Assembly: GCF_020009625.1 (NCBI RefSeq) | Contig: NZ_JAIHLP010000002.1 | Location: 1,302,001 to 1,366,000, forward strand | Source: Leifsonia poae | GTDB lineage: Bacteria; Actinomycetota; Actinomycetes; Actinomycetales; Microbacteriaceae | Reading direction: 5' to 3' | Length of the DNA stretch: 64,000 nt | Shown: positions 47,480-49,852 of the stretch, one piece after another | How positions within the stretch are numbered: position 1 is the first letter of the stretch | How the letters are laid out: the number at the start of each line of letters is the position of its first letter | Notes under the pieces: model-generated | Told to the model about the DNA's origin: nothing | The model's input: only the letters and a program-made list of their open reading frames with translations | Databases searched by the model: none | Position numbers and translations under genes: made by a program

Positions 47480-49852
47480 ATGGCGGCAGACGAGAACGCG
47501 ACGCGACACCGCGAGGCCATCGGTGCCGGGCGCACCTCCCTCGGCATCGAATTCGGGTCGACGCGCATCAAGGCGTGCCTCGTCGACCTGGACGACCCCT
47601 CGTCGGTGATCGCCGTCGGCGGCCACGAATGGGAGAACGAGTTCATCGACGGCATGTGGACGTATTCGCTCGATGCCGTCTGGACCGGTCTCCGAAGCGC
47701 ATACGGCGACCTGGCCGACGACGTCGAGCGTCGCCTCGGCGTGCGACCGCAGACGTTCGGCGCCATCGGCGTCTCGGCCATGATGCACGGCTACCTGCCG
47801 TTCGACGCCGACGGCGAGCTGCTCGTTCCGTTCCGCACGTGGCGCAACACGACGACCGGTCCGGCCGCCGGGCAGCTCTCTCAGCTCTTCGGCGTCAACA
47901 TCCCCCTGCGCTGGTCGATCGCCCACCTGCACCAAGCGGTGCTCGACGGCGAACCGCACATCGACCGTCTGGACTTCCTCACCACGCTCGCCGGGTACGT
48001 GCATTGGCAGCTGACCGGCAGCAAGGTGCTGGGCATCGGCGACGCGTCCGGGATGTTCCCGATCGACGCCGCGGCGGGCGACTACGCGGCGGATCTGACC
48101 TCACGCTACGAGCAGCTGGCGGCCGAGAGCGTGGCGGGGCTGTCGCTGACCGCTGCGCTGCCGAAAGTGCTGAGGGCCGGACGCCCGGCCGGTGTGCTCA
48201 CCACCGAGGGCGCCGCGCGCATCGATCCGACCGGGACGCTGCGAGCGGGCATCCCGTTCTGTCCTCCGGAAGGCGACGCCGGAACCGGGATGGTCGCGAC
48301 CGACTCCGTCACGCCGCGCACCGGCAACGTCAGCGCCGGGACCAGCATCTTCGCAATGGTCGTCCTCGAGCGTCCACTCGCTGGCCGGCACCACGAACTC
48401 GACATCGTGACGACGCCGAGCGGCGACCCGGTGGCGATGGTCCACTGCAACAACGGCGCGAGCGAGCTCGCGGCGTGGGCGGGCGTCTTCGCCCGGTTCT
48501 CCGCCGCGAGCGGCGCGCCGATCGACCACGACGCGGTCTACGACACCCTGTTCCGCGAGGCGCTCGACGGCGAGGGCGACGCCGGCGGAGTTCTGGCATA
48601 CAACACCGTCGCCGGCGAGCCGATCGCCGGGCTGACGGAGGGCCGTCCCCTTCTCGTCCGCTCGCCCGGGAGCCGTCTCACGCTCGCCAATCTGTTCCGC
48701 GCACACCTCTACGGCGCCTTCGGCACCCTGGCGCTCGGGATGCGCGTGCTCGCCGAGGAGGGCGTGACCCTCGACCGGATGTTCGCCCACGGCGGCATGT
48801 TCCGCACCGCGGGTGTCGCACAGCGGTTCCTCGCGGGTGCCCTCGACGCACCGGTCTCGGTCGCCGCGAACGCGTCGGAGGGCGGTGCCTGGGGCATCGC
48901 CGTTCTCGCGGCCTACCTTCGCTCCGCTGAGGACGGTGTCGACCTCAGCGGCTTTCTGCGCACCCGGGTGTTCGGGGGGTTCACGGTCGAGACGGTGGAA
49001 CCGCATCCAGACGATGTGCGCGGGTTCGCCGCCTACCTCGAACGCTACCGGGCAGGACTGGCAGTCGAGCACGCCGCTGTTGAGGCGCTGCCGCTCGACG
49101 ACCGGGCGACCGGGCTTGCATCCTCTGCCCCGGCGCCCGTCGCCGCACTCCCGGCCGTGGCCGAGTCTCCGGCGGTCCGCGCCACCCGCGAGCACGTCGC
49201 CGCGCTGCACGCCGAACTGACCCGCAACGCACTCGTGGTGTGGACCGGGGGAAACGTGTCCGGTCGCGTGCCCGGCGAGGATCTGTTCGTGATCAAGCCG
49301 AGCGGCGTCGACTACGACGACCTCGCCCCCGAAAACATGATCCTCTGCACACTCGACGGGGCGGTCGTGCCGGGCTCGCCCGGCAGCGAACGGTCGCCGT
49401 CGAGCGACACGGCAGCCCACGCGTACGTGTACCGCGCCATGCCCGAGGTGGGCGGCGTGGTGCACACCCACTCCACCTACGCGACGGCCTGGGCGGCCCG
49501 CGCCGAGCCCATCCCCTGCGTCATCACGGCGATGGCCGACGAATTCGGCGGCGAGATCCCGGTCGGGCCGTTCGCGATCATCGGGGACGACTCGATCGGC
49601 CGCGGCATCGTCGCCACGCTCTCCGGGCACCGCTCCCGCGCCGTGCTGATGCAGAACCACGGAGTGTTCACCATCGGCCGCGACGCCCGCGACGCGGTCA
49701 AGGCCGCCGTCATGGCCGAAGATGTGGCGCGCACAGTTCACATCGCCCGCCAGGGCGGCCCGCTCGTCGCCATTCCGCCGACGGCGATCGACAGCCTCTT
49801 CGATCGCTACCAGAACGTCTACGGGCAGAGCCCGGAAGGAGCAGGCCACTGA
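47480..49852 (+). CDS. Fused ribulokinase (AraK-type FGGY kinase)-L-ribulose-5-phosphate 4-epimerase (AraD)
   Basis: One 790-codon frame carries two enzymes of L-arabinose catabolism. Residues 20-535 are an FGGY kinase ('LGIEFGSTRIKACLVD', 'MMHGYLPFDADGELLVPFR', 'NVSAGTSIFAMVVLE') of the AraK ribulokinase type described from Clostridium acetobutylicum, as I recall. A linker rich in Ala/Pro (about 540-563) leads to a full-length AraD (564-790): phosphate loop GNVSG (591-595), zinc ligands His662 and His664 (HTHS), His727 (NHGVF) and the C-terminal 'YQNVYGQ' Tyr region. It would convert L-ribulose to L-ribulose 5-phosphate and on to D-xylulose 5-phosphate. GAGGAG lies seven bases before the ATG. 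araA overlaps the stop. Confidence 0.9.
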   Translation: MAADENATRHREAIGAGRTSLGIEFGSTRIKACLVDLDDPSSVIAVGGHEWENEFIDGMWTYSLDAVWTGLRSAYGDLADDVERRLGVRPQTFGAIGVSAMMHGYLPFDADGELLVPFRTWRNTTTGPAAGQLSQLFGVNIPLRWSIAHLHQAVLDGEPHIDRLDFLTTLAGYVHWQLTGSKVLGIGDASGMFPIDAAAGDYAADLTSRYEQLAAESVAGLSLTAALPKVLRAGRPAGVLTTEGAARIDPTGTLRAGIPFCPPEGDAGTGMVATDSVTPRTGNVSAGTSIFAMVVLERPLAGRHHELDIVTTPSGDPVAMVHCNNGASELAAWAGVFARFSAASGAPIDHDAVYDTLFREALDGEGDAGGVLAYNTVAGEPIAGLTEGRPLLVRSPGSRLTLANLFRAHLYGAFGTLALGMRVLAEEGVTLDRMFAHGGMFRTAGVAQRFLAGALDAPVSVAANASEGGAWGIAVLAAYLRSAEDGVDLSGFLRTRVFGGFTVETVEPHPDDVRGFAAYLERYRAGLAVEHAAVEALPLDDRATGLASSAPAPVAALPAVAESPAVRATREHVAALHAELTRNALVVWTGGNVSGRVPGEDLFVIKPSGVDYDDLAPENMILCTLDGAVVPGSPGSERSPSSDTAAHAYVYRAMPEVGGVVHTHSTYATAWAARAEPIPCVITAMADEFGGEIPVGPFAIIGDDSIGRGIVATLSGHRSRAVLMQNHGVFTIGRDARDAVKAAVMAEDVARTVHIARQGGPLVAIPPTAIDSLFDRYQNVYGQSPEGAGH

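Follow-up and report, generated by a model that had tools for sequence, protein, structure and literature searches.

The araB-araD gene of Leifsonia poae is predicted from its sequence to encode a bifunctional enzyme for the second and third steps of the AraA-AraB-AraD pathway, and a probability of about 0.85 is assigned to this reading. The kinase domain would use ATP to phosphorylate L-ribulose, and the epimerase domain would convert the resulting L-ribulose 5-phosphate to D-xylulose 5-phosphate. In the window (the whole stretch of 64,000 nucleotides that was analysed, to which the coordinates below refer), translation gave an open frame of 790 amino acids from the ATG at 47480 to the TGA at 49852, with no internal stop. 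The gene and its parts are as follows.

47480..49852, + strand: araB-araD gene, encoding the 790-amino-acid kinase-epimerase fusion (open frame, Pfam, curated profiles)
47480..49069, + strand: kinase half, residues 1-530, an FGGY pentulose kinase and putative L-ribulokinase of the non-TIGR01234 kind (Pfam FGGY_N/FGGY_C, locus context)
49070..49165, + strand: linker, residues 531-562 (junction comparison, start-site energies, AlphaFold)
49166..49849, + strand: epimerase half, residues 563-790, L-ribulose-5-phosphate 4-epimerase (NF005123, 1JDI alignment, active-site positions)

The Pfam gathering scores were exceeded by FGGY_N at residues 21-248 (41.1 bits against a cut-off of 28.8), FGGY_C at residues 283-479 (101.6 against 27) and Aldolase_II at residues 571-752 (174.3 against 22.2), and the linker was found to be rich in Ala and Pro. 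The first-pass annotation had proposed a ribulokinase-type kinase and an epimerase in one 790-codon frame with an Ala/Pro linker, which is confirmed by the translation and the Pfam matches. The AlphaFold2 model of the fusion, built with 45 aligned sequences, has shown two confident domains (mean pLDDT 89.1, pTM 0.69) and a pLDDT below 50 for residues 542-557. Among the 13 fusions with the L. poae type of kinase, the linkers are 21-59 residues long and have no conserved sequence.

The epimerase half belongs to the AraD family, scoring 354.1 bits with the L-ribulose-5-phosphate 4-epimerase profile NF005123 (cut-off 251). Its best-matching solved structures are the L-ribulose-5-phosphate 4-epimerases 1JDI and 1K0W, which we take to be the E. 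coli proteins. All eight active-site positions examined in this half were identical in each of the 16 fused rows; D643, H662, H664, D687, H727 and Y781 were identical in all 16. By comparison with E. coli AraD these six residues are presumably the metal ligands and the catalytic Asp and Tyr. The first five lie inside the 1JDI alignment and Y781, the presumed equivalent of the catalytic Tyr of E. coli AraD, lies outside it. The E. coli enzyme is a tetramer in which the active site is completed by a Tyr and an Asp of the neighbouring subunit. Since their equivalents in the fusion, Y781 and D687, are kept, the fusion should still need the epimerase tetramer. The first-pass annotation had expected an unusual oligomer; with a flexible linker, the epimerase halves could assemble into their usual tetramer and carry the kinases along. 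The assembly would then have the epimerase tetramer at its core and four kinases on flexible linkers, and it may grow larger if the kinases dimerise. In the kinase half, all 16 fused rows agree at seven of the eight positions examined, and the eighth, E467, was Glu in 14 and Ala in 2. The earlier statement that both halves keep their motifs is supported.

The gene setting of the fusion is an arabinose operon, with the following neighbours in the window.

46245..47237, + strand: LacI-family regulator, upstream of the fusion (Pfam LacI, Peripla_BP_3)
47446..47459, no strand: TGTGACCGGTCACA, a perfect palindrome of 14 bp and candidate operator for a LacI-family protein, 20 bases ahead of the fusion start codon
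49852..51369, + strand: araA, L-arabinose isomerase (Pfam AraA_N, central and C-terminal domains)
51498..53717, - strand: open frame holding an alpha-L-arabinofuranosidase, downstream (Pfam Alpha-L-AF_C)

As the first-pass annotation had noted, araA stands directly behind the fusion, its ATG (49852) overlapping the fusion TGA (49850-49852) by one base, and its Shine-Dalgarno energy of -11.4 kcal/mol indicates a strong site. The palindrome, of which TGTGACCGGTCACA is the single exact copy in the 4.14 Mb genome, is a candidate operator for the LacI-family regulator encoded at 46245-47237. The true start of the arabinofuranosidase is probably inside its open frame. Two Aldolase_II loci were found in the L. 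poae genome, the fusion and an aldolase-dehydrogenase (apparently RhaEW).

The kinase half is an FGGY carbohydrate kinase by its FGGY_N and FGGY_C scores and by its fold. Foldseek and VIA-align matched residues 11-539 with xylulose, glycerol and ribulokinases alike, so that the fold does not discriminate between these substrates. The reading of this half as a canonical AraB, implied by the name ribulokinase in the first-pass annotation, has to be given up: in the genome profile search, TIGR01234 (cut-off 583.25 bits) gave no match at the fusion locus and passed its cut-off nowhere in the L. poae genome (best match 52.6 bits, elsewhere), and it was absent among the best 25 of the 30 NCBIfam-type family matches of the fusion protein. 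The half is thus another FGGY kinase. A xylulokinase XylB was likewise rejected, with 67.9 bits for TIGR01312 against a cut-off of 380.25; no locus of the genome passed this cut-off, and five other loci scored 210-364. Other FGGY kinases of the genome fit the AraB and XylB profiles better than the fusion kinase, still below the cut-offs. Because the kinase scores so far below both cut-offs, L-ribulose as its substrate rests on context, and from the gene context we infer that the kinase phosphorylates L-ribulose. Among 120 related loci with both domains (three being copies of the L. poae locus and some genomes occurring twice), araA is present in 99, and some of the rest end short. The unfused relatives of the kinase are often named xylulokinase in the databases. 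In the available part of PMC3245297, L-ribulokinases form distinct branches with different specificity residues, and the parts available of PMC3507653 and PMC13081559 describe the use of a non-orthologous ribulokinase, AraK, by Clostridium.

The fusion was found to be inherited. The same fusion is present in two proteins of other assemblies, P0002 (782 amino acids, 82% identical) and P0003 (786 amino acids, 83%), which form one clade with the L. poae locus (L003), with support of 100/99 in a 24-row tree of concatenated kinase and epimerase. The linkers of the three proteins differ in sequence and in length (24, 28 and 32 residues), and therefore the three fusions are not copies of one assembly error. 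A sequencing or assembly error that took out a stop or shifted the frame could account for some other listed proteins, which are partial and from single-member clusters, the pattern expected of frame errors, and a read error is possible in another locus of the genus, L004. For the L. poae fusion such an error has a negligible probability: two other assemblies share the fusion in the 100/99 clade, and the junction retains neither an araB stop nor an araD ribosome-binding site. The first-pass annotation had named close relatives with two separate genes and identical flanking sequence as evidence against a true fusion; such relatives do exist with the same gene order, but their junction sequence differs and the three-member fused clade points to inheritance. 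When L. poae was compared with its unfused neighbours L005 and L008, dN/dS was 0.25-0.26 in the kinase half and 0.10-0.13 in the epimerase half; the unfused pair L005-L008 gave similar values (0.33 and 0.07). Judging by such sequence comparison, both halves are kept under selection.

The junctions of the separate relatives suggest how the fusion may have arisen. In all 13 separate same-genus junctions compared, araB and araD are in different frames; in most of them a GGAAGGAG-like ribosome-binding site precedes an araD start that shares bases with the araB stop (ATGA or GTGA). Of the elements that the separate relatives have in the linker stretch (araB stop, Shine-Dalgarno site and araD start), the L. 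poae fusion has none. The best in-frame start near its epimerase domain has an estimated ribosome-binding energy of +1.9 kcal/mol, compared with a median of -9.0 for 85 separate araD genes (one further gene had no start found), -11.6 for L004 and -2.1 for random stretches of gene; the strength of an internal start is here an energy estimate. With the internal site lost, the epimerase is predicted to be no longer made as a separate protein. The proposed course is that an araB gene whose stop overlaps the araD start would come into frame with araD, giving the fusion, and that the internal ribosome-binding site would decay afterwards. Internal initiation is possible in two other fusions, L100, in which a possible start with a Shine-Dalgarno-like site (-9.6) lies 18 bases into the epimerase domain, and L098, which has a weak internal start (-6.4).

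At L004 (G001:C2, approximately 3087-3184 of the locus), one extra base relative to the close neighbour L007 brings araB and araD into one frame. This locus retains the araD ribosome-binding site and GTG start and is possibly a young (nascent) fusion, or else a read error. At L018-L020, L099, L101, L102 and L144-L161, araB and araD are in the same frame with at least one stop codon between them, and such pairs could be fused by stop loss alone.

The two enzymes are normally separate, as the first-pass annotation had stated: of 28 genomes searched in the genus, 26 have both enzymes, and in 24 of these the two are encoded by separate, adjacent genes. The fused state was found in L. poae and G001, and of the remaining two genomes one had a distant epimerase match only and one had none. 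Among the matches listed for 398 genomes of the family, at least three had one open frame through both domains (L. poae, G342 and G152), and at least three more had the genes in one frame with a single TGA between; among those listed for 396 genomes of the order, the L. poae genome alone was fused. Further fusions among weaker, more distant matches are possible. No fusion was found in the 80 named-genome loci that are the best relatives, eight of which hold the kinase alone.

A protein search with the epimerase half (candidates of 435-1382 amino acids) has given 203 proteins, of which the best 120 were examined together with the query. These 121 proteins have an epimerase match; many are metagenomic and some are single-member. 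The full L. poae type of kinase was present in 13 (query included), another kinase in full in 72, and the remaining 36 were partial, joined to AraA, or other. The other kinase is the canonical L-ribulokinase, TIGR01234 being over its cut-off in 9/9 examined of the 72; P0009, also in this NCBIfam comparison, has the L. poae type. The two kinase types fused to the one AraD family have no BLAST match to each other at 1e-8. With 13 and 72 such proteins among the 121, the kinase-epimerase fusion of L. poae is not a lone oddity. Clusters of 10-45 member sequences were seen for P0148, P0162, P0177, P0212 and P0219, in which an AraB-type kinase is fused to AraD. The canonical-AraB fusions are known here from protein clusters alone; with P0148 as query, no one-frame fusion of this type was among the matches listed for 396 genomes of the phylum. 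Apparent AraD-AraA fusions (PF00596 and PF02610) were noticed in P0127, P0131, P0143, P0196 and P0205, four of the five clusters being single-member, and these may be assembly frame errors. Database names do not reflect the fusion, P0006 being named hypothetical protein and P0009 (Curtobacterium) L-ribulose-5-phosphate 4-epimerase, both fused.

The same two enzymes appear to have been joined several separate times in related lineages, a hint that the linkage is of some use. A tree of 128 rows requires at least 11 changes of the fusion state, and well-supported branches force 9 of these; the tree contains 16 fused rows, two with the same sequence, after two L. poae copies and two loci with partial kinases were left out. 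When 37 further distant rows were removed, the 91-row kinase tree gave 11 changes (7 forced) and the 91-row epimerase tree, which is weaker, gave 13 (4 forced). A single origin of the six fusions of the genus group was rejected by a one-clade constraint with p-AU 1.3e-12, an optimistic value because the 24 of 128 rows were selected with the first tree already known. The count of changes would fall if, as is possible, some of the fused entries in the databases are errors. The changes are likelier to be gains of the fusion than losses, because a split must restore a stop and a start as well as a ribosome-binding site. The clade of the L. poae fusion is not in doubt whatever the number of origins.

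What the fusion may be good for was considered along with the alternatives. L-ribulose 5-phosphate is toxic, and arabinose sensitivity of epimerase-deficient E. coli was reportedly described by Englesberg in 1962, going by the title. On account of this sensitivity, the simplest and most likely benefit would be a fixed 1:1 ratio of the enzymes making and removing L-ribulose 5-phosphate, a proposal to which we give somewhat less than even odds. Any such benefit is not strong or general, because the fusion is rare (3/398 genomes of the family and 1/396 of the order, among the matches listed). A serious rival is neutral fixation, since the two genes often share a frame or overlap: neighbouring genes would be fused by single indels or lost stops, and a flexible linker would make the result harmless. 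This reading falls just short of an even chance. In keeping with it, a sample of 110 separate kinase-epimerase pairs no more than 300 bases apart, biased to adjacent pairs, already has 51 in a shared frame; L004 differs from L007, its nearest neighbour, by what looks like one inserted base and has its internal start intact; and the fusions among the matches listed are rare, scattered and mostly at tree tips. Yet the L. poae fusion has persisted through divergence to 82% identity with the internal start lost, and one epimerase family has been joined to kinases of two types with no BLAST match between them at 1e-8, both of which speak against mere neutrality. True substrate channelling, in which an adjacent epimerase site would receive L-ribulose 5-phosphate directly from the kinase, unmixed with the cell pool, is improbable. 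Two consecutive steps in one chain and an intermediate that is harmful on accumulation (Englesberg 1962, title) would suit it, but a linker that is partly predicted to be disordered, varies from 21 to 59 residues in 13 fusions and has no conserved sequence argues against a defined tunnel.

Taken as a whole, the proposal that the actinobacterial fusion is recurrent and selected on account of toxic L-ribulose 5-phosphate, with two ribulokinase types, a tetramer bearing four kinases, and nascent as well as mature forms, is tentative, and the odds are on balance against it. If it is true, successive stages of a gene fusion can be seen in the nascent forms (internal start kept) and the mature ones (internal start lost). 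The joining of consecutive enzymes is a classical sign that selection may act on flux or on an intermediate that does harm, and a recurrent fusion of varied maturity, with unfused close relatives and two kinases, allows benefit (by stoichiometry or channelling) to be tested against neutral drift in matched natural pairs. Moreover, the names L-ribulose-5-phosphate 4-epimerase, hypothetical protein and xylulokinase hide a likely ribulokinase family.

The enzymes and the pathway are known, and the recurrent fused arrangement is apparently undescribed. The first-pass annotation knew of no characterised example, and in agreement with this no description of a fused AraB-AraD was found in the open-access literature (subscription papers and InterPro being outside the scope), including the available parts of PMC7478625, PMC2248599, PMC5928203, PMC3245297, PMC3507653, PMC8551123, PMC13081559, PMC3870299 and PMC5080769. 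In the separate araB-araD-araA operon of actinobacteria (same genus, Microbacteriaceae, Cellulomonas and others), the kinase and epimerase families are the same, araA is adjacent and the order is often the same; its kinase and epimerase are encoded by two genes, however, and within the genus the araD start usually has a ribosome-binding site in front of it and overlaps the araB stop. The fusions of canonical AraB (TIGR01234) with AraD, e.g. P0148, P0212 and P0219, share the steps, the order and the NF005123 subfamily with the L. poae protein; on the other hand, their kinase is canonical AraB (9/9 examined), with no BLAST match to the L. poae kinase at 1e-8. The Clostridium AraK (CAC1344), as described in the parts of its sources available, is an FGGY ribulokinase other than AraB in an arabinose cluster, as is predicted for the L. 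poae kinase, but is encoded by a separate gene. The nearest tested analogue found is RhaEW, a rhamnulose-1-phosphate aldolase fused to lactaldehyde dehydrogenase, for which the available part of PMC3870299 gives biochemical tests. By that account, RhaEW has another partner, an N-terminal aldolase domain and another sugar, and, like the L. poae fusion, it combines a domain of the class II aldolase family with the enzyme for a consecutive step in a sugar pathway.
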